DNA of 64,000 bases, taken from Onthophagus taurus. Lineage: Eukaryota > Arthropoda > Insecta > Coleoptera > Scarabaeidae. Under the pieces are notes generated by a model that did no database searches, had not been told where the DNA came from, and worked only from the letters and a program-made list of their open reading frames with translations. The position numbers and the translations under genes are program-made. Where the stretch lies: assembly GCF_036711975.1 (NCBI RefSeq), contig NC_091973.1, positions 806,001-870,000 of the forward strand. Reading direction: 5' to 3'. Shown one piece after another: positions 15,152 to 59,000 of the stretch (its first letter is position 1; each line of letters opens with the position of its first letter).

Positions 15152-21286
<6,135 letters not shown>

Positions 21287-26300: not shown

Positions 26301-29300
26301 TAGGCACAGCCGTCCAAGTCATTGGTGCGCATTGAACTAATGGCGAATTCGTTGCCGACATTGAACTCTCGGACAGCATCGAATCGTTCGAACTAGACGC
26401 TCTGCGTCTTATCGATTCCTCCGACGAACTCGACTTTAAATTTTCAATTTTTTCACGATCATCATCTCTAAAACAACAAAATATAACTTTAATATACTAA
26501 AACCTTGATATAACCGATTAATTTAATTGTTGCGTTATATACTAATTAATTTTTAATATAAGATGATTGTTCAACGTGCAAAAAGAAATTTACGTTAAAC
26601 TTGAATTTTTAATCATTAAATCTTACTTCATTTTTAGTGATATATATTTATCTGGTATTAATCCTTGATTTCCATTAACAGCACCGCGCCACCAATCATT
26701 CGATATTTGCGAATATAAAGTTACCGTGTCACCTTTTTTGAAGGAAAGCTCTCGATCCGAACGCGCTTGAAAATCGAATTGAGCAGTCGCTTCCATGCAT
26801 TCAGAATCTATGCACAAATAAAATTAAAAAAATAAAAATTATTCTAAAAAGTTAAAATTGATTGTACCATCTTCTGAAGGATAAACTTCCGAATCGATAT
26901 CTTCATGGCCTTGCTCAGAGGGTGAATCACCAACATCACTAAAAAATGAATTAAATAGTGTAAATAACCTCGTATTTATACAAAACTTACTGATCATCCG
27001 GTTCAAGCGAAATGTATTTTTCATAAACCACACCGCCATCGTTAGGGAAAATAGAATCATTGTATTTAATAATATTTTTAATAAGCTCATTAACTTGGTT
27101 CTGATATTGAACCTGGTCTTTATCGTCTGGGACGGGCACCAACGTCGGGCCAAAACAAATCGCTAAATTGTAAGGATCCATCATGTTTTCATCAGAAAAT
27201 TCTGATAAACTATAAAAAAAATTTAATAAAACTTTCACCAAAAAAATTAATCTTATAACTCACTGATTTAAAAATGCAAAAAGATAACGCATCACAACCA
27301 CAACAGGTCTGGGAAGTCGGAAAATTAACTCACGTATTTTCGTTATAAATTCACGTTTCGATTCGAGTTCTAAAAAAATGAGATCATCAAATAATGTCTA
27401 AAAAGTGAAATAAAAATCTTACGTGCTAGTTCCATAAAACGTTCGAAGTAAATAATAGGGAAAAGCGGTTCTCTTAATTCACGTAAATAAAGTTTTAAAA
27501 CACCCGCGACGCTGTTAATATCGGAAGAATCGGTCATTTCGGCTAAAGGATCTTCGCCTTTCTCAAAAGCCTCCCTAAAATTGTTTATTTCAACCTGCGA
27601 CCCTGACACTCTAAATATTCCTTGGTGATGTAAACCTTTTATAACAATAAAAAATTATTTTGAATATTTTCTTTATAACAATATTAAAATTTACCGTATA
27701 AATTTATCACACGAACACATGATTTAATAATAAGGGGAATTTCTTGATTGGTGGCTTCTAGATACTCCTCAAGTGATCCTCCAAATAATTTTGGTTGACC
27801 GCTCATTTGTAGTCGACCAATACGCTTGCGCCGTGGTATCTTTGAAACCGGTTTTAATGTATTTCCAGCTTCGGGAGTTTCGGCTAATAATGTTTGACTT
27901 ATATATTTTTGCTTAGCATCTAACCTAGCTATTCTAGTAGAACCTAATAAGTATTCACGAAATTTCTAAAAAAAATATGCTTATTAAAGATATAATATCT
28001 TGATAATTATTTTACCGTTAAATAAAATTCCTCAGTCTCTTGTCGATCGGCCCTTTGCTTCATCGATAGCGATTCGGGCGGTTTCGTTGCGGGGAGAGCG
28101 TTTTCCCCAAAATACTGACTGCAATCGTAGTCCTTAGCGTTTAACATTTCCAACAACGTGCTTTCGGCAGTTTCTAACGTTTTCCAAACTTCGTCAGACT
28201 CCGCTCGTAATGTCGTCACACGTTGCTGGAGTTGATTCAGTCTGGTTTCCATCTCCTGGTGAAGTATCTTCTGGATTTCCGGTTCCGGTTGCTGTAAGGT
28301 GACACCCTTAAAAGGTCCAGGGTATAGATAATCTATGCTTATACTTACGTCATCTGTTTTTTGGCCTTGGAATTCCAATTTTTTAGGGATCATAAACGCG
28401 CTATGATTGTATTCTAGGAATCGTTGCTTATCGGAACCCGAATCTAGTGAGTTGATGCACGTTGAGAGAGTATCCATACCATGTTGCACTGACCTTTGGC
28501 GACCTTCTTCAGCGGAAACATGCATAAGTAAAGCTCTAGATATACAATTATGAAACCCAAAGTCCATACACTGAAAATGAATGGTAATTTTAATTGTAGA
28601 AAATAATTTGGGGGTTGGTATCTTACGTCGATTAAGTCAGATAAATCATCGACGAAATACTTATGAATAGTAGTGTTGGAGGCTTCCAGGCACAAAATGT
28701 ATTCATTACGAGCTTTTAGCGCTTTTATTTTAGCATCCGAGCATTTACTAGCACGTTTCGTTACTTCTTTTTCCATGAATTTGTACTTCTTAGACCGTTC
28801 GAGCTTATCCTGAGGTAGCGATTGTTTGAGCTTGTTCCGCTGAGTTTCAGCGGCTTTGAGCTTCTCCTCCGCTTGTCGGAGCTCGCCCTGGTAGCTGTGA
28901 TATGTCTTCATGGTCGTGTGAAGCTCATGTAATACTCTGAGAATTTCTTCGTGCGTTTCGTATCCAATTTCCCTGCACTAAGATTCATACAAAAAGAAAA
29001 AAATCGAGTTGACATTTCCTATAAATAGTTATTGAAATTACTCTTTTATATATCCTTTGGACGTCTTCCATAACTTGCGCTAACCTTGAAACTAAGTGAG
29101 TGGAGTAGACTTCGGCGAGGGCCACATGGTCACGTGATAAGTTCTTCGTTTGAGTGACCAGCTGTTGCCAACAAGCGTAACTTGAAAATAAAGGCCATTG
29201 TTCCCTTCTGAAAGAATATTCCATATAGAAAACGGTTCGAGTGTATGAGAAGGGCTTTTTTATACTTTTGCTTTTGCTCCTTGTGTCGAAGCTGAAGGCT

Positions 29301-29449
29301 CTTCGCCAGTTTGTCTAAATTCTTTGAATAGTCCAGCTCCAGCTCCCCTCTACGGCGGAAGAAATCTTGTAGCTCGGTCACTAAGGCCACTTGGGCCTCC
29401 ATGCGCATGTCCAGGCATCGTAGTTGCTCGTTCAACTGAAGCCTAATAT
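23394..29449 (-). CDS. SLIT-ROBO Rho GTPase-activating protein (5' partial)
   Basis: This encodes an srGAP-family protein: F-BAR membrane-bending domain, then RhoGAP, then SH3. It acts under the plasma membrane downstream of Robo to turn off Rac/Cdc42. Exons read 29449-29266, 29217-29042, 28977-28627, 28570-28016, 27965-27695, 27635-27423, 27369-27265, 27209-26991, 26938-26868, 26807-26627, 26467-26248 and 24191-23394. The F-BAR part starts IRLQLNEQLRCLDMRMEAQV. The RhoGAP has the arginine finger in GIFRVSGSQVE and the block DENMMDPYNLAICFGPTLVP. The SH3 has ALYDF-like ATAQFDFQARSDRELSFKKG and DWWRGAVNGNQGLIP. The first exon found opens at a splice acceptor in phase 1, so a short upstream coding exon (start codon plus roughly 20-30 residues) lies somewhere in 29.5-38 kb and was not found. 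Exon 12 can also read to TAA 26227, giving a shorter C-terminus. Confidence 0.94.
24654..24694. repeat. perfect 14-bp hairpin in the last srGAP intron
   Basis: CGCGGTTTTATTGC (24654-24667) and its exact reverse complement (24681-24694) flank a 13-base AT-rich loop. It lies in the 2-kb intron before the last srGAP exon. It is too short for a typical animal pre-miRNA unless pairing extends outward, which it does not appear to do well. Confidence 0.7.
26227..26467 (-). CDS. alternative terminal exon of srGAP
   Basis: If the donor at 26247/26246 (GAG|GTACTC) is not used, exon 12 continues EVLETTV and stops at TAA 26227-26229. If the donor is used, GAG joins AAA TTA ATC at 24191 in phase 0 and adds about 266 serine-, proline- and lysine-rich residues ending KDQGDVST. 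Both readings are open, so two C-termini are predicted downstream of the SH3 domain. The short form is serine-rich (SSSSEESIRRRASSSNDSM), suggesting a phosphorylated linker. Confidence 0.55.
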
Positions 29450-32400
29450 CTGAAACGAAGAACGAACCGTCGGTTAGAGTCGTAAAAGGGGGCATTTTAG
29501 AGACCACCGCGTGGGTATCACTTGCGAATTGGTATTTCCTGTCCACCCACGTGGAGAAAAGTACAATGTGGGTGAAACAACCGATAAAACATATGCATTT
29601 TCAAACCCAACAATTCATAATCAAAATGATTTATATAAAACGACGTTTAGTATAAGGGCTGTTTTGAGCTACTTCATGAAGTTAATAGATTTTAAAACGA
29701 TCGAATTTGACCCTTAATTAAAACGACCTCCAGGCGTTCGCTACGGGTCGTTGTGTTAGACACTGTCGCGACAGGGCGGTTCAAAACGCTCTCGACAAAT
29801 CTAGGGTAATGATGAATGAACGTTTTGCAAAAGGTCAATAACATAAACACCGGGCGATATTTACAAATGCTTGAACCACTTGAGTGTGACAAACATGTGG
29901 GAAGTGATAACATATAGTTAAAAATATAAAAACATTTACATTTAAAACATGTAGATATATAAGGAAGTTGTGGTTCAATTACACGACGTTTAGAGGTAAC
30001 GGAGAGACTCGGTAAACTGTTATTTGGTTATTTTTGCGAGGAATTAAATGCCGTTGCGTTCGAAACGAAGACGTTGCGTAACCTGCGAGCCTATAAATTA
30101 TGCTTATAACAATGAATGAGGAACGAGATTCCGAATAATAAAAGTCGAAATAAATCAATATAAAACGTTCCCGAGCCGGCAAGAGGATGTTCGTCAATTA
30201 GTTTTATACTAGCATTATTTCCCCATTACAAAAGGATGTTGGCAATATTACAAGAGATACGGCGCATCCGGAACGGTCAATCTGTTGAATACAAATGATT
30301 TTTGAAGCAGCGTACAGTTTACATATCGAATTGTTTCAACGCGCACTTTAAACCATAGATAGACCCAAAAAAATATTACTACACGCTATCTAATTGTAAG
30401 AGCAATAACAATTATAGCCAACTAATCCGTTTTCGATTCACGGTTAATCATTGGTTGCACCTCTTTGTCTCGTGAGAAAATAACTACATAAAAACTTCGC
30501 TCCCATTGTTGCATTCTACTGCTTTCGCTAACGTTATTAATGGGAGTCTTGTGGAGAAAGCTCAACTAAAACGAGACATTTCAATTTTTCCGCGTTTCAA
30601 ACATGTTAATTTTTTTTATTAAACCCGCTGTTACAATTCATTTCTGTAGGATCACAATAAAACCATTTGAATTACACATTATAGGTTGGATACAGTTTCA
30701 GAGATGTCTCTAATTAATGGCCCTTTATTTTTATTTAATATGCGTCTCACATAACATATTGTTGCAACAAGCTTCACGTTCTAAAGGTGCTTGTTAATCT
30801 CGGTATTATAGTCTTATAACGACGATTTTACTGGATGAAGTTGGTAAAATTAAATCGTTTATTTGATATGATCACTTTTAGTCGATTAAAACAATCGTTA
30901 CGTCACAGTGAATTTCTTGTTAAAAGTTAAACCTTGTCACTTTGTCACCACAGTTCACAAAGGTTTGAACATTGACCGAACGATCCATTTCTATTTTGGT
31001 TAACGAATTACTATTCTTACTATGACAGTTGGTTTCTTGTTTATTTATCTTGTCGGTGAGATGAAAACAATCTCATCTGAGAAAAATGATTCAGAAGCCG
31101 ACGATTATCTTGTATAGGGATGATGTAACACATCGAATCTGTATTTTCATAAAGTAAAATTTAGTTCAAATTTGTGTATTGAGTCATGTTTAAAGTTATA
31201 GATTAAAAATAGTAACATTTAAAATGATATGTAAACACTACGTAATAGAGAGCGCAAGAAAATTTGAAGGACATTTTCATTATTGTTAAGTATTCGGGAC
31301 GTTCTTATAGAAACTTGTACACAGATGGTTGGTTTCGAGAGGACGAATACCATTAAAGTTAAAGTAAAAGATTCTTAGCGATATAGAAAACTTGTTTGGA
31401 ATTTGTTGGACAGAGGCATAAAAGACGGAAACGGTATTCTACTATGCAGCGATGCGGCGTGATTTAAGCTTTATCTATTTTTACCGGTATCTTGACAGAC
31501 ACATCAAGTTCATTACCAAGGTAGAAAACCCGGCGCAATTAAATCTTTACTTCCAGAACGTCTCTAAACCATCGAGGGTCCCTCTATGATTGGCGTTTCC
31601 TTCGACCGCCTCTTAATTTATTAAGAATCTCCACGCTCTAACGGCCGTCATGGCGCAATCGAACGATTCGATTTTCATTTTCCGTTAGATTTAGCCGCTT
31701 GGACGGGCCGCGTTACGTGATAAATCACTCAAATTAGATTACGCTAAGCCTCATTTGATTAAGGCGCGCTCTTTCGCGGCTACTAAACTTCATTTAATTA
31801 ACCATCCCAGCGTTGCATATTGAGAAGACTCTGTCTCATCACGCAAAACCCTTTCTTTCAATTTTATTTCCGCACAGCTGCTCATATCCACATAAGTACA
31901 TAACCACAACACGAAAGCTTTACAAATACCACTCCATATTAAAAGATACTAAGAAATCTTCGCACAAAGAATTTGTTAATTAATAAAATAATAAAATTTC
32001 GAGTCTTTAAGTTTAACTGCAACTTTTCCTAGATTCTTACAGCCGAGGCGCTACATTCTCTGTGCTGAGTTTAGCCAAGGTCAATTTTGGCCGAGGAGCT
32101 TGATATGATATTAATTGAACGTCTCGGCCAGATACAACCTCAACTTAATCAGAGGAAGCCATAGTCATTTAGCCGTTGCTCAAATTAGTGTGGATGTGGT
32201 ATCATTTATGACGCCTCGCCCGCAAGCGACCTCGGCTTAATCAGATAAAATCCTACATTCTCTGTGAAAAATGAAAAATGTAGCCAAAGTCGCTTATAAC
32301 ATGTGTTGTTCAAGTTAGTTAAAAAAATTACTTACAACATTATGAGTTTTACCGCTTTTTGATACAGCAACCAACGCATACCGCAAAACTTAACACATAC

Positions 32401-39769: not shown

Positions 39770-40502
39770 TTATTCTAATCTTTGTATTGTATTCATAGAT
39801 ATTTTCTCCCACTCAGTAATCAAAGCTGCCTTTAGATCTTTTTGATTCTGAATACTGTATTTTCTGATACAGTAAACTCCACAAATTTTCAATAGGATTA
39901 ATGTCAGGCGATTGTGGAGGGGTTTCAATCCGTTTTGGAGTATTATAGAGTAACCACATTTTAGTATTCCAGGCTGTGTGCTTCGGATCGTTGTCTTTGG
40001 TAAATACATAATCGTTATTTAGCCTCATTTTTTCAGCACTGCTTCGAAGATTTGTTTTTAAAATGTTGATGTATTGCTTGTGATCCATGATTCCATCAAT
40101 GAAATGCATATTTCTAACACCTTTTGAGCTCATGCAGCCCCATACTAGTACAGAACCTCCTCCGTGTTTAAATGTAGGTCTCAAGTTTTTTTCTTCCAGT
40201 TCTTTATTCTTTTGCCGCCATATCATTCGCCGCCCGTCGGATCCATAAATGTTAAACTTACTCTCATCCGTAAATATTACTTTGTTCCAGAATTCATTTC
40301 TACTATTTTTATAGGTTTCAGCGAATAATTTTCTTTTTTGTTTATTAATTTTGCTTATAAATGGTTTCTTTCTGGCAACTCGACCATGATAACCAGCTGC
40401 ATACAGAACGTTACGAATGGTATTTACGGATACAGATTTTCCAAATTCACTTTCAACTTCAATAGCAATTTTTGTTGCACTTTTATTAGGATCTTTTTTA
40501 AT
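39770..40502 (-). pseudogene. Tc1 transposase pseudogene (DD34E type)
   Basis: This is the transposase of the Tc1 element at 38539-40810, broken at both ends. An open frame begins just after an in-frame TAA at 40503-40505 and carries the second half of the DNA-binding region (VNTIRNVLYAAGYHGRVARK). Next come NKVIFTDESKFNIYGSDGRR with the first catalytic D, VFTKDNDPKHTAWNTKMW with the second D, and SPDINPIENLW with the E. A frameshift after the E at about 39840-39820 moves the C-terminal part (NQKDLKAALITEWEKISMNT) to another frame, which stops at 39770-39772. The N-terminal helix-turn-helix region is missing. The element can no longer make functional transposase. Confidence 0.9.
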
Positions 40503-45000: not shown

Positions 45001-45837
45001 TTCTTTAATTACGATGATTTTGCATCCGAGACGACTTCTTCACCGCGCTCTCGGAATTCAAGTTTCGATCTTCAACATTTATTTTTTGATGTCTACGAAT
45101 GGGGAAGGATTATTCTTGGCGTTTTTCATTTGTTTGTGTTTAACTTGGAGTTTCATCGAAATGGAAGAATCCAGGCAAAGTGGTGAGGTTGCTCTTAAAT
45201 TTGGAGCGATGGATGCCACGAAAACTGAAGTATCGCACCATGATTTCCGAAAATGCTTTATATTCGTATCCTTTTTTAAATAAGATTTAAAGGTTAAATT
45301 TATATATAGATTACATTATTCCTTAACTAATATTAGATGGCTTATATCTTGTTATCATTTTTTGGACCTGGAAATATCTCGGATTTAAATACATTCGACC
45401 CAATGTGGACGCGGTGTTTCGTGCGAGTCTTCAATCCATACTTGATTACATCTTTAATCGGTTTAAAACTAGCAGTACCGTTCTTTATAACAACGATTAA
45501 CTTCCATATGATGAACGTTTCCGGCCGAACATCGATCTTAGGCGCTTTCACGATTATCTTATTCTTTTCGGATATCATGGTTATGAATATGATGTTTCGA
45601 GTAACCAACGAGGGTTCGTGGCTTGATATTGGTTTGAGTATTTCTCGTTTTGTCATCGCGAATATTATTGCAATAGCGCTTTTAGTTATTTATTGTTTAG
45701 TTCGGTTGTTAACCGAGAATAGATTATTTGATTATTTAACCGTTCGTTTCCACCGCTTTTTCGGTATTCGTACCGCTATTGTGATTGAGGAGAGTAGCGA
45801 AGATGATTTGATGGGGATTTATCATAAAGTAGATTAG
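42075..45837 (+). CDS. GPI ethanolamine phosphate transferase 1 (PIG-N)
   Basis: This ER membrane enzyme adds ethanolamine phosphate to the first mannose of GPI-anchor precursors. Twelve exons (42075-42091, 42201-42446, 42506-42726, 42783-42996, 43058-43343, 43403-43624, 43971-44217, 44282-44451, 44503-44684, 44734-44945, 44997-45265, 45337-45837) join in frame to 928 residues, normal for the family. After an N-terminal membrane span come the alkaline-phosphatase-fold motifs: [13 protein letters not shown] (metal-binding D near residue 68), [16 protein letters not shown] (probable nucleophile threonine), [13 protein letters not shown] and [14 protein letters not shown]. The C-terminal PigN part is a long multi-span membrane region. 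The start is uncertain: exon 1 gives MWLVDR in frame, but a second ATG ([11 protein letters not shown], residue 24) is where the human protein would begin. It converges on eEF1-delta with a 269-bp gap. Confidence 0.95.
43758..43786. repeat. 11-bp hairpin in PIGN intron
   Basis: CTAGTAAGTGG and its exact reverse complement enclose the 7-base loop GTGTGGT. A second small hairpin (ACTCCC/GGGAGT) lies about 30 bases upstream. Both are in the intron 43625-43970 and have no known role. Confidence 0.6.
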
Positions 45838-46070
45838 GTTGAAAAAAAATGTGATAATAATTAAGAGTATTGTTTATTTTGTTTTTGTAAAAGTATCGTA
45901 GTTTATTACAAATGTGATAACGCTTTAATTTATGTTTTTCGTTCATTTGCGTTAATAATCTAGGTTAATACTTATAATACAAATTCAAAAATGTGATATA
46001 TTTGTATGCATTGACTGCCAAGAGTAACCTGTTTATTAAAATGAAACGATATAAAAATTATGGAAAATAT

Positions 46071-46076
46071 TTTATT
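46071..46076 (-). terminator. poly(A) signal for eEF1-delta
   Basis: On the minus strand this is a canonical AATAAA, about 30 bases past the eEF1-delta stop at 46107. Confidence 0.55.
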
Positions 46077-46106
46077 TCAAATTAAGTTTCACAATTTCAT
46101 AATGAT

Positions 46107-47147
46107 TTAAATTTTATTAAACGCTGCAATATCAACACTTTGCACCTAAAAATAAAATATAAATAAATTTATAATAAAATAGAATAATTTTTTTAGCTTA
46201 CATAGTCTTCAAGACCCTCAATTTGCTCTTGTAACAAATCAACAGAAACTTTTTCATCTTCTACTACGCATGATATTTGTAATTTTTTAATTCCATAAGC
46301 CAAAGGAACCAATTTTGCTAAAAACAAATCAAAAATAAATCAAAAAAAGATTTTTTTTAACCATAACTTACAAGCCCCCCATAATAATCCCTCCATTTCA
46401 ATTTTCCTAACATTTTGTTCCATAACTTTCATATCGGTTTCATCATCCCATGGTTTGACATCCAAAACAATACTAGATTTAGCAATTAAAGCGGGTTTCT
46501 TCGACTTTTTCGCGTGGTACTCTTCCAAACGCTGTTGTTTAACTTTCTCTGCTTCCTCATCTTCAGAATCGGAGGCGAATAGGTCAACATCGTCGTCGTC
46601 GGTGGTGGTTTTGGTGTCGATTTTCTTCATATCAATCGCACAGGATTTCGCGCAGCTCTTCGAATCGCCACATTTACTTTCGATAGCGCGGAGACGTTGA
46701 TCCATTTTCATCATTTGTTCTTGGATGTTGTTGATGACTTTTTCGAATTCTAAATATTTTTTCTCGATTAAACTCATTGAGGCTGTATCAGGCGTAACAT
46801 TTTCAGAATTTGACTAAAATTAAATAATTTTCTTTTTGTAGATATCAAAGGAAACATGGCAAAACTTAAAATAAAATGTTTTAAAATATTTAACCATTTA
46901 CATACATCGTAAGTATTTATAATATCAATAAATCGTTGCCTTGCCTTAGCCACTTCATCAGCTAAGGGAGTTAACGTGGACTGCATGAAAAATTTTATGA
47001 TAACATTTATGATAATTTTCAGGAATAAATGAATGTTACCTTTGGACAAGATGCTGGAAGTGCTTGTTTCTCGTGGTAAATCTTCTCAGCTTCCTCATAA
47101 ATTGCTCGGTCCGTCCAAAATTTATCTTGAGCGATTGCAGAAGCCAT
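46107..47147 (-). CDS. translation elongation factor 1 delta (eEF1B-delta)
   Basis: This is the guanine-nucleotide-exchange subunit of eEF1B, which recharges eEF1A with GTP in the cytosol. Coding exons 47147-47040, 46980-46906, 46813-46372, 46317-46202 and 46145-46107 join in frame to 259 residues, normal for short delta forms. The N-terminus is [21 protein letters not shown] heptad-like helical region follows ([20 protein letters not shown]), then a CxxxxSCAKSC patch, then the acidic stretch [19 protein letters not shown]. The exchange domain begins [20 protein letters not shown] and ends [11 protein letters not shown], the terminus typical of eEF1B-beta/delta. The start codon lies directly at a splice acceptor, and a likely 5' UTR exon ends near 47202. 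The leucine-zipper-like region and the longer N-terminus separate it from eEF1B-beta. It diverges from cv-c. Confidence 0.93.
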
Positions 47148-49074
47148 CTAAAATTATGCCCAATTTAATTAATTGATGGGATAAACAGAAAATACTTACT
47201 TTAATAGTAAATGTATTTGCTGAACTTAAGACAACGTGTCGACCACCGCTTTAATTAATTAAAAAGGAATGTGCTATATAGCATGCGTAACACGTTTTCC
47301 ACGTGATTTATGCTGCCATCTATTGTTCGATGCTATTAACTAATAACGGTCGGTATTAATTAAAATTCTCATCAGTAAATTAATTGAGAATGATGAGTGC
47401 TTATAATACCAAGAAGAAAATGCATTAAAAGTATAAAAAGATGGAATAGAAAATCTTTTTGGCCTTCTCACACCCACCAAAGATGGCGTTTTAATTCGTA
47501 GACTTTCAAAAAATTATTTTGCTTCCTTACATTTTGAAGTAATTTTTTTTGCCGAAATAACCACATTTATTTACTTAAATTGTTCATCCCGAATCCAACC
47601 CGGATATTGTTGATTACTTGTTGATGCTTAAGTAACTTAATAAATTTTTATTTAATAATTAAAAGTAATTCAATATTTTTTGATGAAAATTTTTTTTTAA
47701 TTTCGATTTCTTTATTGGTGTTATATTCATTGAAGAATATAATTTTGAATAAGCTTAAAAGGCCATAAACGAGTTGTTATCTTATCTCTGCTCAACGCGT
47801 TGGTTGTTATACTACAGCCATTTACAGTTTAACACTCAAACTTGGAACGTGACGATCCTTTTTTCTTGGTTTCTTCATCAAAAGTGTTTGTTTCAAAGTT
47901 TTGGGTTAAATGAAAATTTTTTAATTATAATTTATAACATTAAATTGGGTAAGTGGGTGTTAATTTTTATATATACTCATTTAATTAATAAAAATTATGC
48001 GGAAATAATTTTAAATAAAATATAAAATTATAATAATTGTAGATAACACCATCTGCTTAACACTTGATCGTCCTATTTATAAATAACGTACTATAATTAA
48101 AACAATCCCACATGTGAAGCTTTGAAAAAAAGAATAATAAAACGGCTTTAAAATTTATCTAGCTTTGCTGTCTTCTCCTTCTTCTTTATTAAATAGTCGT
48201 TTAAATTATTTGTTTCCTTTTCTTTTCATTAACGTTGTTTGGGTGGTTTTATTTTCGAACGCTAAAAGAAGAAGCTATTTTATTAGTTGAATTAAACAGA
48301 AACAGAAAGGCGTACTTAGGCATTCGTCTGTCGTAATAAACTGAGGCCGTTGATTCATTCATACATACACACTGTGTATGTACGGTATATACATAGTGTT
48401 TTCCTGTTTAGAGGCCAAATGAATGTGTTTTCAGTTTCAATTTATAACATAACATCTCTGTTTAAAACTTTGTGTTTTTAGTGTATTAATTTTTAATTTC
48501 ATTACTAATTAACTATCAATTTATTGATTATCTTTTTAAAATATTTGTTGAGATAGGTAAGTTCGATGAAATTTTCAAAATTTAATCTTGATAAATATAA
48601 GAAAGAAATTTCAAATGTTAAAATTTTAAAATTAAAAAAAAATTTAAATTAACAAGTCACTCCCAACTCAGGAGGGAGTTGGAATTGTTTAAACATAACT
48701 GAACGTAACTCTGTAACTCTGTAGGTGATATTTTCACGAAGCGGCTCAACCGCGTCAACCATAAAACTCTTACATAATGAATATTAAAAAATTGAGTGCC
48801 ACTAAAAATTGATGAAAAAATAAATTATTCCAAGAAACTACTTGAGCGTACTAAAATGACCTTGGTAGGTATAAAAAATATTTAATGGGGGAAAAAGAAA
48901 AGAGCCGACGGTATGCGGTTAGAAAAGAAAGAAATTCTAAATAAATCGTTTACGTAAATATATTTTAGCGTTCAAGGACGACGTCCTAATCAATATGTGT
49001 TCGTTGTTGCAGGTATAGTGGTAACGGGGCCCCGTAGAATGGACAACTTTTCGTTCGGCAGGTGATCCAAAACT
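47148..49074. promoter_or_regulatory. divergent region between eEF1-delta and cv-c
   Basis: These 1.9 kb separate two head-to-head genes. A 5' UTR exon of eEF1-delta probably ends near 47202 (minus-strand donor AAA|GTAAGT). On the plus strand a cv-c 5' UTR exon begins after the acceptor TTGTTGCAG at 49012, and the ATG follows at 49075. The rest is AT-rich with no gene visible. Confidence 0.45.
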
Positions 49075-52000
49075 ATGAGCCTCTACGACCCGTTTCAAGA
49101 TATCGAAAATTTTATACACAAAAATCACGTAAGTAAAAAAAAAATTTTTTTTAATTAATTTTATTAATTTAAATTAAATATATTAGAATTTTCTTACAAA
49201 AAAGAACACTCTGTATGTAAGATTAGTTTTCTTAATATTTTCTTCGCCCTTATCTACAAAGCGATAAGGGTGAAAATAGCTAAACCAAACTCCGCCATTC
49301 ATAACCCACCGTTTAAATTCTTATTACACACCGATTATACACCCATTACATCATATTACATTTATTGCATTAAAATAAAATTAATTAATTTGGAATTGCG
49401 AAAGGCTCTTATTGCAGGTGGATATACGGGTGATAATTATATTATATGTAATTATGTTTGATCATCGTCACGCGAATATTACGACTAATATCGTCAATGA
49501 CATCATTTTTTCATTAGAACTATTTGCTGGCACTATTTAGAAAGTTAGTCACTTTAGAAAAAATATTATATATTTCAACACATTTGTTGATTTTGTTCAT
49601 GAAGTTTATTTATTTTTCCTTATTACGGCTGTAATTATGTTTATTTAATTATATTGTACTTATTTAATTATATTTATTTAATTAATTTATGTTTATTTTT
49701 AAATATGCTAACAATCTAAGTAAATTTCCTGCTAAGGTTATAATGAAATATTTGAAAATATAATGTATTCTAGGAATTAAAATGTGTGGAAAATCTTTTA
49801 AATCGAAAAATTCTACATTAATACGATTTTTTTTAATATTTCAATTTTATCATGAAGAATTGATTAATTTTGATCGCTTTAAATGAGTTATATTAGAATC
49901 TTAATTTCTTACCTTTATTTTCTTCGAAGACGTCGGCCGCCCCAGGTATTGTTCGTGATATAAGAAATAATCTCGGCCGACTTCGAAGACGTCGGCCGCC
50001 CCATGTATCATGAACAATACCTAATTCCATAAATTTCAAGACTTCTCCAACAATAATCTAGTTCTAGATATCTGCTGTGACAGCTAAAATCAAACACACT
50101 GTATATACATATAATATATATAGGGTAAGCAACCGGAAACAGTAGCTTATCTAAACACCTGCAAGATTTTACGAGAAAATTTCATAGAGCACATTTTAAG
50201 ACAAAAATCCGTGGCACCTAAAAATGTTTTTGGTATTGAGAATTAATAAATATACGGCAATCATATAATATAATATATTAAGCGACATTTACACCAGTAA
50301 ATAATTATATATGATTAAATTGGGTTTATTAATTTGTATTTAATTTGACGTTTCGCAAAATATGGAGTTGATTAAAAACTTTTTTTAAATTTTTCTTCCC
50401 GCGTGTGGTGAAATAGGGGTCGTATTCCATATCGGGATCCTTTTTAATCAAAATCCAATAGGGAACTTCGGCGAAAAGCCTATCGTATAGATATTTCGGA
50501 TCCTTTTTGCCTCTATTTGCCCAGAAAGGACCCAAATCGGTTTGACGAATATCCCGTTTCAACCAGGTAGACACACAACATTTTCTTTTATCAACACTTA
50601 CCTACCGGAAAAAAAATTATTATTCACATAAGCAATTTTGTCACTTAGTTTAAGATTTACATCACTAGCGTGTGTACAAACGAGTATTAATAAAATGGGG
50701 AACTTCATTTTTGCTTCTTTGTAATTTCCGGGAGATTCTGTACAGGCTGAAACTTGTAAACTGGATAAATTCTCGGTTTGTTCGCCTTTTATAAGTTGAA
50801 AAAGTCGTAAGGTTCGTAGCTCGCGGTCATTGTAAGATTATTTGGGGACGTTGGGAATCAAATACTTGTATCACGTCACTTTGGTCATCATATATGTTTT
50901 GATTTCCTAAGGAAAAAGCCCTCTCTTTTAATCCCAAAAGTCAACCTCTGTTATTTACCGCTTTATTTATTAAATTTTTGTATATTTCAGCTTAATACTA
51001 AACACGAACAGGAACTCGATCCAGAACTCGCCAGAGATCTAAACGACCTCTTAGAAGATTGCAAAAAGTATAATCAAGACCATGTCGGGGGATACTTGGA
51101 TAATTCTTGGCTGGAAGATGAAGGGGAATTTTTATTTTCAAATTCGAGGGTAATTTTGAATTATTTTTTTGTTTGTTTTTTTTTTAATTTGTTTTTTAGG
51201 AATCTTTACAATTGGTGGAAGCTGTAATAAGCACTTGTACTCAAACTTCGCCGTCGGAGAGCTCAACAAATTTGACTTGCACATCAGATTCATCTTTGTC
51301 TCCTTGTGTAACGTCGGATTTAGATGGGGAAGAAGGGGTCGATCGTGGCGGTTGTGCGGTTAGTTTTCCAGTGGAAAGGAGGCGATCGGAACGACGGAAG
51401 TCCTCTTCTACGTCGGTATTGAAAAAAATAACCAAGGTACGGGAGATTGTCCCCTTTGAACTCGGGTGTCGAGTTCAAAGTTTTCCATTTGAGTAGCCAT
51501 GTATGATTAATCGTAACGGTTCCAGGTGAAAACACAACTCCGATCCCAGTCTGATAGGCACCTGTCTGGTGAGTAACATCTAAAAATTTGAAAATGTCCG
51601 TTCGGATAAAACAGTACAAGTTCTTTAGAAGTTTAAGTGTAAAAGTGAACGATAATTGGCCGGTTAGAAAGGCCGAGCAAATTTGGAGACAACTCAGAGC
51701 GCATAAAATAGCAGGTTGGTGACTGCCTAATATTTATATGCAGTCCCAACTCTCCCAGCCCTTATTAATATACTTTTTTTAATTTGATTTGTTGTTGCAG
51801 AGATCGAAGCAACCGAAGCTTGTAAATGGTTAAGAGCAGCTGGATTTCCTCAATATGCCCAAATGTACGAAGGTGAGGCTCAAAATGTTTTAACAACAAC
51901 CGATAACCTTTGCTTCTCAATATTTTGCAAACCGAGTTATATTTAGAAAAACTAATTAGCTTATCACCACTTCCAATTCATAACCAAAATTATGTGATAA

Positions 52001-54727
52001 TGTACAAAGGTAAATTACGTCACTCTAAATTTCATTCAAAAACTTCGAAAGATAACCTTTGATCCTTATTAGACTTAGTTTGCGAAAATACTTTATATTT
52101 AGAAACTAAATCAATTCTCATTCCACATTTAGACATGCAGTTTCCAATCGAGGTCGCAGCCGTGGAGCAAGATCACCCGCTTCTTGAATCCAGCGTTCTT
52201 CACTCCTTATATCGACGGCTTCATATTCTCAATAAATGCGCGCAGTTCCACCAACAGAGGGTGTCGCGTTCCGACGATTCCGAAGACGAACAATGCGCTT
52301 TAAGCGAAAATTGGGCTTATCAAAAGGATATTCGGAGATGGTCAAGAACCGTAGACTTGGAAAACGAGGAGGAAACTGCATCTTTAGGAACAGAATCGGA
52401 AAGTTTAAGGAGAGGCAGCTATCAAAAGGAGGAAGAAATCCCCGAAAGCCCAAGAAATAAATTTAAACGAGTGATTTCGCCGAGTTGTAGAAGGAGGAGG
52501 AATGAAATAGTAAACAATAATAGTGGATTGAACGTTCTGGATCTTCTCTCAAAGCAATTGAACGATTTTAGCACCTCAGGAAATCCTGTTTTAGACCCTG
52601 AATCACCGTTTAGGAGGAGTAGGAGAAGAAAAACCGGGTCTTTTGATAAAACTGAAACGTGGTTACAATTAACAAACCCAAACGATACGTAAGTAAATAT
52701 CAAAAAAAAAATTTTTTTATTTAATTTAAATTTATATTTAGTTTGTTATGGCCAAGTCATCAAACAAGCGAAGATTTCGACGAAGTGCCAACTGAAATTG
52801 AAGAAGGAGGGCGCCCAATTTACACTTTATCGGCAAATCAACTCCAAGTCCTTCGAAAATTAGCTTTGCTCAAATTAACTGCTCACATGGAAAAATATTG
52901 CCCAACACATAAAACGGGTTGGAATTGGGATATCTCAAAATTTATAAGAAAAATTAAATGTCCTGCTTATAAAGGTATAATTCTCTATAAGTTTTATATA
53001 GCAAAAAATATAAGGATCGATTTAATCTCAAATCGCCGAGGTTTGCGGACGAGGCGTTGGATTAATACGAAATCATCACTTTGGAGCATTCTAGCGCCTC
53101 GCCAGCAAGCGACCTCGGCGGTTTGTCTTCTTGTAAGTGACTTGGTATCTACAGTGTGTTAATTAATTATCGTACCCGACGTCATCATTGCAAGTATGCA
53201 ACCAATATCACACTGAATATATCTGAATACGCAAATCGCGTATTGCAAAATCAATACTGTGATATTGGTTGCATACTTGCAATGATTAATTAACACACTG
53301 TACATGAGTCCGTAATATCAAGGTTTTATTCTATTTATTTTATATAATTTTTTTAAATTTAAAGATAAACTTATTTTTGGAGTTCCTATAACCGTAATCG
53401 TTCAAAAAACGGGTTTACCACTTCCGAAAGGAATCGAAGAAGCTCTTATTTGGTTAGTTAAAAACGCTGCGAATAATGTTGGGATTTTTCGAAAACCCGG
53501 GGTTCGATCGAGGATTCAACACCTTAAAACAGTCATTGAAGAATATGGTGAGAACATTAATTTTAACGATCACCAAGCTTATGATGTCGCTGATACCGTC
53601 AAACAATATTTTCGAGAGTTACCTGAAGCTGTATTAACCAATAAGTTATCCGAAACTTTTATATCTATCTTTCAACGTAAGTTTAAATTAATGAAATTAA
53701 ACAATTATTAAAGTAATAATTTATTTTTGAATTAGATATACCAATTCAATTACGCAAAGAAGCCGTTTTATGTGGATTATTATTAATGCCGGATGAACAC
53801 CGCCAAGTACTTGAAGTATTATTAAATTTTTTGAGTAAAATAGCTGAATATTCGTCGGAAAATCAAATGAATGAAAGTAATTTGGCTTTGTGTTTCGCTC
53901 CAACATTGTTTCATCACAACCAAGTGGTAAACAGACAGGTTACGGGTATTCCTCATCCAAAAGAATTGGACGAAAACAAAGCGGCCCATGAATGTTTATT
54001 ATTCCTAATAAAAAATTTTGATAAATTGTTTCACGTTCCGACTGATTTATTAAATCAGTGTAATTTTAGCGAAGTTAAGTTGGTTCCTTTAAGTGTCGAG
54101 AACAACGACGAGTGGAGATCTTACTTAGAAAAGTGTCAATCGGCGTTGTTGAATGAAGTAAAAGAAAAAGCTAGGGGATGGATTTTGATTCCAAGTCATT
54201 TCGAGAAGATTGAAATTTCTTATAAAAAAGTCGCCGATTCACATCCATTAAGGTTATGGAAAATTACCATAGAAGTTGATGCTAGTCCAATAGAAATCTT
54301 AAACAGATTACTTAAAGAACGTCATCTTTGGGATGAGGAACTTGATTCGACCAGGACTATTTCTCAGGTTGATGAGTGCACGGATATTTTTCAATATACC
54401 CGAAGAAATGTAAATCCACTTCCTTTAGAAGATTACTGTGTTATTCGTAGTTGGAAAAAAGATATAGGAAAAGGTGGTTGTTTATTAGTTGAAACTTCCG
54501 TTGAACACAAAGATTCAATGACCATACCAAACTCCGTAAGAGGAATCGTTTTAGCATCACGATATTTAATAGAACCATCAGGATCACATTCTTCAAAAAT
54601 AATACATATGTCACGGGTGGATGTTAAAGGTAAAATGCCGGAATGGTATCACAAACATTTCGGCCATTTACGCGCTCAACATATCTACAATTTACACAAC
54701 ACTTTTAAGAAACAATCAAAGAAGTAA
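49075..54727 (+). CDS. crossveinless-c / DLC-STARD13 RhoGAP
   Basis: This encodes a Rho GTPase-activating protein that switches off Rho at junctions and in shape-changing epithelia. Exons 49075-49128, 50991-51149, 51200-51436, 51526-51568, 51801-51872, 52133-52688, 52742-52974, 53365-53676 and 53736-54727 join in frame to 885 residues. Domain order is SAM (EATEACKWLRAAGFPQYAQM, about residue 166 on), a serine-rich linker (RSDDSEDEQCALSENWAY), and RhoGAP (about 455-650) with arginine finger in VGIFRKPGVRSRI and the block NQMNESNLALCFAPTLFH. A START lipid-binding domain (about 685-880) follows, with LRLWKITIEV and SRYLIEPSGSHSSKI. This is the DLC1/STARD13 layout. An alternative first exon (51594-51714) and a possible cassette exon (51947-52009) are listed separately. 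A poly(A) signal lies at 54972. Confidence 0.95.
49922..50101. repeat. TA-type MITE fragment with GC-rich tandem block
   Basis: The right end, read inward, is CAGTGTGTTTGATTTTAGCT and is followed by TA (50102-50103). It is a relative of 36439-36775. Its inner side carries two direct copies of TTCGAAGACGTCGGCCGCCC (49922 and about 49980), each adjoining a GAACAATAC or GTATTGTTC phrase. The GC-rich block also occurs in Sra-1 intron 2. The left end of the element is not evident. Confidence 0.6.
50329..50708 (-). CDS. natalisin-like neuropeptide precursor, nested in cv-c
   Basis: This is a predicted secreted precursor of amidated FxxxR peptides of the natalisin type (brain peptides of arthropods, related to tachykinins). 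Exon 1 (50708-50602) starts MKFPILLILVCTHASDV, a convincing signal peptide, and ends NNNFFSGR at an AG|GTAAGT donor. Exon 2 (50512-50329), entered in phase 2, gives GKKDPKYLYDRL and then DPYFTTRGKK, ending at TAA. Together they make 96 residues with two amidation-plus-dibasic sites (FFSGR-GKK, YFTTR-GKK). The 89-base intron itself stays open in the peptide frame and encodes KRDIRQTDLGPFWANRGKK, a third, best-fitting natalisin unit. The true transcript may therefore use a different acceptor and include it. The gene lies wholly inside cv-c intron 1 on the opposite strand. A tachykinin-related precursor is less likely, because the FxGxR spacing is absent. Confidence 0.75.
51594..51714 (+). CDS. 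alternative first coding exon of cv-c
   Basis: ATG 51594 opens MSVRIKQYKFFRSLSVKVND and runs to GCA G|GTTGGT at 51714. It ends in phase 1, the same phase as exon 51526-51568, so it can join directly to the SAM exon at 51801. It would give a shorter protein beginning about 40 residues before the SAM domain, much like the short DLC1 isoforms that start just upstream of SAM. The donor is weak (GTTGGT). Confidence 0.5.
51947..52009 (+). CDS. possible 63-base cassette exon in the cv-c SAM domain
   Basis: The segment is bounded by TATTTAG and G|GTAAAT, is 63 bases long and is phase 1 on both sides, so inclusion would keep the frame and add 21 residues (core LISLSPLPIHNQNYVIMY). The known DLC SAM sequence fits without it (MYE-DMQFPIE). 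Inclusion would split the SAM domain, so it may be rare, non-functional or a duplicated acceptor region. Confidence 0.3.
53034..53120. repeat. short inverted-repeat element in cv-c intron
   Basis: Ends read CGCCGAGGTTTGCGGACGAG and, reverse-complemented from the right, CGCCGAGGTCGCTTGCTGGC, pairing imperfectly through GCGAGGCG. The element is 87 bp and non-coding. It is related to the repeat at 32040-32290. Confidence 0.6.
53152..53300. repeat. 149-bp TA-flanked MITE in cv-c intron
   Basis: Ends read CAGTGTGTTAATTAATTATC and, from the right, CAGTGTGTTAATTAATCATT. Inverted similarity continues inward through GCAAGTATGCAACCAATATC. TA flanks it at 53150-53151 and 53301-53302. The tip resembles, but differs from, the 36439-36775 family. 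The intron carrying it lies between the linker and RhoGAP exons and is otherwise spliced normally. Confidence 0.75.
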
Positions 54728-56047: not shown

Positions 56048-59000
56048 TTAACTGTAATAATAAAATACCATTGCTTGTAAAATACCAAATAGAATAATGA
56101 TTGCGAGTAAGTAATTTGTACGATTTTTTTCCAATTCCAGGTGTCTGGTTAAACTTTCCTGCAACTTTTGTATCCGGTTGCTGTGTTCTTGAAGATTATT
56201 TTGCAATTCGGAAATTGCTGTTAAAATTCTTAAATAAAAAATTGTTTAAAATTATTTAATTTTTTTTATTTAATTTCTTACGTATTATTTGATGTAGTTT
56301 TATTGATTTTAACACTTTGAGTTGAATCGGAATGATATTCCTCAGATTCCGTCCCGGTATCGTGTCCATCCCCATCAAAACTACGCTTATTATTCTTCAT
56401 AGCAGCATCTTGTCTTTGCATGCTCGTTAAACTCGACGTTCTTATCATCGGCGTCGGGTGTCTGGTTCGCGTGGAAATCAAAAAATCATGTTCGTACTGA
56501 TACAAATCATTTCTAGGATCCCACGGCCGTAAATCGGAATGTTTATAAACCCACTGTCCGGATTTTAAGTCTTGTTGAAAATGAATCGGAATCCAATCTT
56601 CGCATTTCGCTTTGCGTTCTTTCGACGAAGCACGTTGGGCTTCTTCTAAAGTAGTCTTTTCTTCAGTAGCTGCGTTCATATCATCTCTCAAGATAGCTGC
56701 CGAAACGTGCTGCCAAAGACGTTCCGATTCAAACTCACCCTGTTGATCCACCGGAACTGTATGTCGAAGAAGGCGACTTTTACGAATAGCCGAAGTTGGG
56801 TTCCAAAAAATTTGAGTATCACCCGTTCGACGATCTTTTATATTAATAACACCATCCCAAAATCCCTCTAAAGTGGCAAGAGTTTCTTTCCCCAGTCTTA
56901 ATCTACCCGTTATGCAATTCGTATGCTCGGTTCCCCCCAAAAAAGGTTTTAATTTAAATTCAATTTCAGTTTGATAACCGGTTTTTTCACATTCTATGTT
57001 TACTTTACCCCCTAATTCCATACTTAAGGTACCCATTAATATACCTTTACAATGGGCGTAAGGGACGGTTAATGTATAATTTTCACCACGCGGTAAAAGA
57101 GTTAAAACAGCAGTACCATCTAAAATCGCAGAGGTTGAGTTGCCATAAAATTTCGATTTTGCGAGTATTGAAGCGGAAATTGAAAAGCCATCCATACGAT
57201 TCGTAACGTAAAATGCAGAAACCGGTGGATGATGAGAAACCTGTTCGGCGACGTAAAACGTTTTCGAACCGTTTGGATGTAGCCAATAACAACGAAAAGT
57301 TTCCCCCAAAATCGGGTTATAAGGTTTTTTTAATCCTTTCGGTTTTTTGTATAAACCGGAAAGGTACCATTTCACGACGGTTTTCATCCGAGTAAAAGCG
57401 TCATCTTCTAAAACGGCTCGCGATAAAATATCAACGTGGTAGTAAGAATCGGTGAGTTTATCAAGAAACGAACGCGGCTCTAAAATAAAAGTAGGCAAAA
57501 CAACTTTGCTCAAATCCATTCCCGGACGAACTTGTTTCACAAGATACCAAATTAATGATTTGTGTTCATCTGCTAATTCTTCAACTTGAGCACCAGCCTC
57601 AAAACACAAGAATACAAAAAAAAAATTAACATAAACAATATTAAAAAATATTTACATCTCCCAATTCTTCTTCAACGTTTGGTACATAAGGCGTTTCTAC
57701 TGGATCATCATCAATATACTCCTCTTTTCCTGAGACATCCGAGTCTGTATCACTTATTTCACAATCCGCGGCACAAAAATGAGTACCATTATCCGGTTGA
57801 CTAACATCATCTAAATCTAAAAAAAAATATTTAATTATTTTCAAACACACAATGATTTTGAAGTACAAGTATTAACTCCGTTCTTCTTACAAAAGTTAAA
57901 TGACATGACTCAAACTTGCGGAATAAAATTCCGAAATAATTACTAATGCTTATCCGGGAGTGTTTCGAATATTTCTGATTTCGAATCGTACGGAGTTAAT
58001 TTAAATTTAAACTAAATTAAATTACCATGAACAAAATGTTTTTCGTAATCGGCTTCAGACCATTGCGTTTCATGACTAGTACTTCCAATACTTGCTTTAT
58101 TAGCCGAACGAACCAAAGCGGCGTCGTTTCTTATCGAAATTTCTAACGCGTCTAACCAACACATTCCCGACGCTTGAGAAGATGCTCGAAAAATTGAGTA
58201 TGATGTAGGTAAAGGTTGTACGACAGCCCCTTAAAAAAATGTTTTTACTCACCAAGTTTTTGAATCAATACACTTTATTTATTTTATCATCTCAAATTTT
58301 TAGAAAAAACTTATTTTACTTAGAACTGAAATGAAATAAAGTAGCGGAGAAAGACACAGGATGAAGTTCGGCTGAAATCAACCCAAGAAGTTTCAAAAAG
58401 AGAAGGTAAGGATAATTTAAAGATTCTTGAAGCGCGAACCATGAGAATGTAGTCGAGATTTCCACAGAGAAACCAACAAGGCAAGATCGTCAAATCAGAA
58501 AAAATTAAGATATGTACACCGCAAGCAAAACACCGACCCGAGCCGCCTTTGACCACCTGACTAGGTCAAAGGAGGGTCGGGTCGGTCTTATACCATGTAT
58601 AAACAAATAAATCTTTATACTTGGATGATGTGCCAGATACGAAAAATCAAAACACCGACCCGAGCCGCCTTTGACCACCTGACTAGGTCAAAGGCGGGTC
58701 AGGTCGGTGTTCTAGTAAATGATGTGCATGGCTCCAGTTCATTTATTGACTTCATTTTTATGTATCGAATAATACAACTTTTTTACATTATATATATATT
58801 ATTTTTAATTTGTAACTTAATAATATGGAGATTATGCCAAATAATTATCTTATCTTTTCGGTACCGATTACTCCAATTTCTTTTCCTTGGAAGAAGCAAC
58901 TCAACGTTTTGTACAAAATTGATCATATTTGATATAAAACAGTAAAACCTCGATATAACGGATTAATACGGAGAAGGGAGTACCCGTTATATGAATACTT

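Follow-up and report, generated by a model that had tools for sequence, protein, structure and literature searches.

Gene model and chance expectation

The window, the whole 64-kb stretch of Onthophagus taurus DNA analysed here, very probably contains a natalisin precursor gene with two predicted peptides, placed by prediction on the strand opposite to cv-c and within the first coding intron of the latter (Table 1). The initial annotation described a signal-peptide exon and the units PFWANRGKK and PYFTTRGKK on the minus strand. All three were found between 50329 and 50708, where an ATG opens a signal-peptide-like beginning, MKFPILLILVCTHAS, and both units lie within one open frame. The signal peptide was assessed by eye, on its charged start, its hydrophobic core and the T-x-A ahead of the cut. 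Models were enumerated from the ATG with a single GT-AG intron of at least 40 nt and a product of more than 60 aa, and 12 were listed. The model with a 59-nt intron is the longest of these and the sole listed one that retains both peptide units in phase. It links MKFPILLILVCTHASD in phase 0 to VSVDKRKCCVSTWLKRDIRQTDLGPFWANRGKKDPKYLYDRLFAEVPYWILIKKDPDMEYDPYFTTRGKKNLKKVFNQLHILRNVKLNTN and gives a precursor of 106 aa, in which dibasic sites stand on both sides of each peptide (KR-DIRQTDLGPFWANR-GKK and KK-DPDMEYDPYFTTR-GKK). At 50601 stands a GTAAGT, a stronger donor than the GAT/GTAAAT of this intron.

With its TATA box, initiator-like site and AATAAA, the predicted gene is compact, at ~440 bp. 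Since TATAAAAG has 11 occurrences in the window, counting both strands, the TATA box is notable solely through its spacing to the initiator-like site, at which transcription likely starts, judging from these motifs.

Table 1. Predicted features of the window, by position.
Feature	Position	Strand	Basis
CYFIP/Sra-1	17398-20568	+	Pfam
F-BAR (FCH) protein	29133-29600	-	Pfam
PIG-N	45337-45834	+	Pfam
Elongation factor 1 beta/delta type	46343-46813	-	Pfam
cv-c, predicted first coding exon (MSLYDPFQDIENFIHKNH), GTAAGT next	49075-49128	+	prediction; single candidate in 45901-50985
cv-c, predicted first coding intron, 1862 nt, natalisin host	49129-50990	+	predicted flanking exons
Natalisin, polyadenylation signal AATAAA, overlaps stop codon	50325-50330	-	motif match
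Natalisin, coding exon 2, TAA stop included	50329-50601	-	open frame, splice model
Natalisin, peptide 2 (DPDMEYDPYFTTR), YxxxR type, KK before, G-KK after (Gly codon 50400-50398)	50401-50439	-	positions hand-counted
Natalisin, peptide 1 (DIRQTDLGPFWANR), KR before, G-KK after (Gly codon 50511-50509)	50512-50553	-	positions hand-counted
Natalisin, 59-nt intron, donor GAT/GTAAAT, acceptor TTTTTTTTCCGGTAG, 25% GC	50602-50660	-	splice model
Natalisin, coding exon 1 (MKFPILLILVCTHASD), signal-peptide-like	50661-50708	-	reading frame, splice model
Natalisin, initiator-like site TCCAGTTTAC, ~30 nt downstream of TATA box	50756-50765	-	motif; start inferred
Natalisin, TATA box TATAAAA	50787-50793	-	motif match; spacing to initiator-like site
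cv-c, predicted second coding exon (LNTKHEQELDPELARDLND...), acceptor TATTTCAG, no in-frame ATG	50991-51149	+	prediction
cv-c body: SAM second half (in 52063-52689), RhoGAP (53316-53708, 53720-), START (53720-54724)	52063-54724	+	Pfam, solved-structure sequences
Oxysterol-binding protein	56281-57651	-	Pfam

The pattern [FY]xxxRG[KR][KR] has three matches in the six frames of the 64-kb window, and two of the three form the natalisin pair, which shares one frame at a distance of 111 nt. For comparison, 200 windows were simulated from an order-1 Markov model of this window; they held 0.47 matches on average and four at most, and in none did two matches share a frame within 200 nt of each other, stop codons being ignored. 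The motif pair is therefore beyond chance expectation. Codon usage of exon 2 was positive in the proposed frame alone among the six (0.123 per codon). Stop-free stretches elsewhere in the window, some of which may be real exons, scored similarly or higher (up to 0.382), so the codon usage of exon 2 is weak support for coding, and we rejected it as decisive proof.

Host gene, nesting and splicing

Pfam detected RhoGAP and START in the body of the host gene. The second half of a SAM domain was found with solved-structure sequences only (best E 1.7e-6), and 52063-52689 gave no Pfam match at E 0.001; the first half of the SAM domain was not located. The three domains stand in the order SAM (second half), RhoGAP, START, and the best solved relatives of the host are STARD13 and DLC1, with a match to the STARD13 START domain at E 6.5e-56. 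By its domain content, the host gene is assigned to the DLC/cv-c family. The exon that begins at 50991 has an acceptor and lacks an in-frame ATG, which calls for a coding exon upstream of it. We scanned 45901-50985 for phase-0 segments that open with an ATG, span 24 nt or more and end at a common donor, and one candidate was obtained, 49075-49128, with GTAAGT. Exons 1 plus 2 together gave no Pfam match at E 1. As these two predicted exons flank the natalisin gene, it would lie antisense in the predicted 1862-nt intron; the antisense position put forward in the initial annotation is thereby upheld as a prediction. We found nothing showing that the nesting regulates natalisin or cv-c, and nothing that speaks for or against the transcriptional interference raised in the initial annotation.

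Natalisin might instead lie upstream of cv-c, head to head with it, if 49075-49128 is no cv-c exon. At only 54 nt, and lacking support from databases, this exon would allow such an arrangement. We nevertheless consider it unlikely, since the exon at 50991, with its clear acceptor, needs a coding exon ahead of it and the donor patterns applied to 45901-50985 yielded no candidate other than 49075-49128. If the coding exon lay further upstream, natalisin would still be nested; an exon between 50709 and 50985 would leave it outside the intron, and none was found there. The exon structure within the precursor had also been drawn differently. The initial annotation read a third unit, NNNFFSGRGKK, across a splice, which needs an 89-nt intron (50601-50513) that deletes the FWANR unit, and it ended the signal exon at the GTAAGT of 50601, where the best model ends it at 50661. 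With exon 1 running to 50602 and spliced to 50512, the product would be 96 aa long and carry NNNFFSGR-GKK and YFTTR-GKK, either in place of the 106-aa precursor or as a genuine second splice form. That model does have a full consensus donor, TAG/GTAAGT at 50601, and its join keeps the frame and yields SGR-GKK. Against it, the conserved FWANR unit is lost, NNNFFSGR has no preceding dibasic site and the acceptor, GGGCAAATAG, is poor. Base composition and codon scores point the same way: the 89-nt intron would have 40% GC, above the exons (35-36%), whereas the 59-nt intron has 25%, and the codon score is above zero for 50601-50513 in its coding frame (0.240 per codon) and below zero for 50660-50602 read as coding (-0.194). 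Use of the donor at 50601 is quite improbable, with a minor second splice form still conceivable, and the third peptide and the earlier exon structure are most likely wrong, as far as sequence can tell. Read as a peptide, NNNFFSGR most likely corresponds to the T-run and the acceptor TTTTTTTTCCGGTAG of the 59-nt intron translated as protein.

At 50601-50602, the natalisin 3' splice site abuts the consensus 5' splice site TAG/GTAAGT, which is the layout of a recursive splice site. Two-step splicing, with removal of 50660-50602 and then of 50601-50513, was worked through by hand and rejected, as an early stop results.

The cv-c intron also holds a repeat of ~100 bp (49922-50023), in which CTTCGAAGACGTCGGCCGCCCC occurs twice at a distance of 59 bp. 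This repeat has 426 matches in the species' own genome, and among the matches listed all but one, on C7, are on C8, the contig of the window, suggesting that it may be enriched on one chromosome. Its 22-base core has 1396 copies at no more than one mismatch (reversed control, 0), and among the matches listed at least 19 are on six contigs other than C8. Telomere repeat type was little informative, with one internal TTAGG stretch and 10 matches for the reversed control. Elsewhere in the window, at 39813-40502 on the minus strand, an open frame resembles a Tc1/mariner-type transposase by eye.

Peptide identity and the natalisin system in the genome

Both units are of the FxxxRamide kind with a Gly-dibasic signal, PFWANR-GKK as FxxxR and PYFTTR-GKK as YxxxR. 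In the passages of the cited papers on which we draw throughout, the natalisin motif outside Diptera is given as FWxxRamide (PMC7907129); peptide 1 (FWANR) has this ending and peptide 2 (YFTTR) does not. The comparison covered published mature natalisin peptides, and the precursor had no Pfam family match at E 1. The FWANR ending, the Gly-dibasic signals and the match to the mature peptides support the earlier assignment of the gene as natalisin-type. One natalisin locus was found in the genome (290.8 Mb, 33 contigs), on C8.

A provisional tachykinin-type receptor query gave 72 genome matches, with two loci prominent by identity, and these were compared with provisional natalisin and tachykinin receptor references. 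At C10:2.650-2.653 Mb (L004, L018), identities to the natalisin versus tachykinin receptor reference were 55.6/42.1, 61.5/48.7, 50.8/43.9 and 43.9/37.0%, all four compared pieces being closer to the provisional natalisin receptor reference. At C3:30.18 Mb (L010, L011), identities to the tachykinin versus natalisin receptor reference were 58.8/46.5 and 74.5/54.5%. On these provisional references, the C10 locus appears natalisin-receptor-like and the C3 locus tachykinin-receptor-like. Independently of the provisional references, the 11 best solved-structure sequences for each of the two loci were tachykinin receptors, one of the two queries having been joined by hand with inexact first residues. 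The C10 locus is a candidate natalisin receptor by sequence similarity, and the C3 locus a candidate tachykinin receptor. Loci L005 and L006 were second and third by E-value for the receptor query, at 31 and 29% identity. Locus L007 (C10:2.53 Mb) was rejected as a tachykinin-type receptor: neuropeptide FF receptors came first and the substance-K receptor was near (E 4.1e-25 versus 1.6e-22).

Tachykinins have the FxxxRamide frame too, and the gene could on that ground be a tachykinin precursor. We regard this as extremely improbable and rejected it. Neither FWANR nor YFTTR has the Gly of FxGxR, the common insect tachykinin ending in the excerpted text of PMC4730192, and the genome has a separate tachykinin precursor at C5:2.334 Mb (L020, 1261-1950), a single open frame that encodes 229 aa and in which six of the seven FxxxR-G units are FxGxR. 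A decaying natalisin pseudogene also deserves consideration, because natalisin has been lost at least twice in beetles according to passages of PMC6585902. In the same passages, Veenstra describes natalisin-less beetle genomes as lacking both ligand and receptor genes; here both appear to be present, the receptor as the candidate on C10, and the frame, splice sites, cleavage sites, TATA box and AATAAA are all intact. Decay is therefore very improbable, and we retain the reading of an intact natalisin precursor gene.

The locus contains the frames, a splice-compatible structure, the motifs and the cleavage and amidation sites, and in the genome we found one natalisin locus, a candidate receptor and, apart from these, a tachykinin gene. 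Beyond this, we infer transcription, processing, receptor activation and a behavioural role. A small TATA-driven gene with one splice, of the 59-nt intron, would give a secreted precursor of 106 aa. Convertases would cut it at KR and KK, the exposed C-terminal Gly would be converted to an amide, and DIRQTDLGPFWANR-amide and DPDMEYDPYFTTR-amide would be released. The amidated peptides might then act on the natalisin receptor, for which C10:2.650-2.653 Mb is the candidate, and modulate mating and fecundity. In several insects natalisin has effects on mating or on egg laying (PMC7907129), and some lineages no longer have it (PMC6585902). Natalisin genes are known from many insects; with its corrected structure this one looks real and of an ordinary type, and it would add a member with a two-peptide model to a known family. 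The gene is so small that gene callers could overlook it. Together, the corrected model and the receptor candidate in the same genome make the system testable in this species.

Possible age of the predicted nesting and comparison with known systems

We take Drosophila cv-c to be CG34389 (RhoGAP88C, at 88C), a number consecutive to CG34388, which would make these genes neighbours. Natalisin of Drosophila is CG34388 (PMC10620068). On these gene numbers, the nesting may be old. It is plausible, if somewhat short of probable, that it is ancient and dates at least from the ancestor shared with Drosophila, perhaps through shared regulatory DNA or because separation would be damaging. One association analysis of flight performance names both natalisin and cv-c (PMC7971549, in part), which fits linkage of the two genes and is no demonstration of it. 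Among the papers searched, none combined natalisin with crossveinless, natalisin with CG34389 or RhoGAP88C with intron, those listed for synteny did not cover natalisin, and the excerpted passages that name natalisin and cv-c do not state gene positions. The word "nested" in the excerpt of PMC7907129 concerns PCR primers, and this hit was set aside. If ancient, the arrangement would represent a neuropeptide gene that has stayed nested for a long time, and natalisin could then be sought by position in insects whose peptide has diverged; should Drosophila share the position in cv-c, position could help in locating natalisin in other insects or in ruling it out.

The order SAM (second half), RhoGAP, START of the host body is the same in cv-c, DLC1 and STARD13; the N-terminal exons of the host, unlike its body, have no database match. 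Among the peptides in the excerpts of PMC4730192, Tribolium castaneum TcNTL1 (ASGQEEFGPFWANRa) is identical to peptide 1 in its last seven residues, GPFWANR, and at eight of 14 positions by hand count. Its amidation relies on the same Gly-dibasic signal, and its N-terminal half is unlike that of peptide 1. Bombyx mori BmNTL3 (DLRQENDPFWGNRa) and BmNTL5 (TEENPFWANRa), from the same source, have the PFW(A/G)NR ending in common with peptide 1, and BmNTL3 shares with it a D-x-RQ start. Like the precursor described here, that of Bombyx includes YxxxR peptides, BmNTL10 and BmNTL11 ending YxxxRa (PMC7907129, excerpt) and peptide 2 ending YFTTR. Published precursors range in these passages from two predicted peptides in mites (PMC4730192) to twelve in the moth Spodoptera litura (PMC7907129), compared with two here. 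Natalisin of Drosophila is likewise an FxxxRamide neuropeptide, possibly in the same genomic neighbourhood to judge from the cv-c number. The Diptera form of the motif, FxPxRamide in the excerpts of PMC4730192, is unlike the endings found here.
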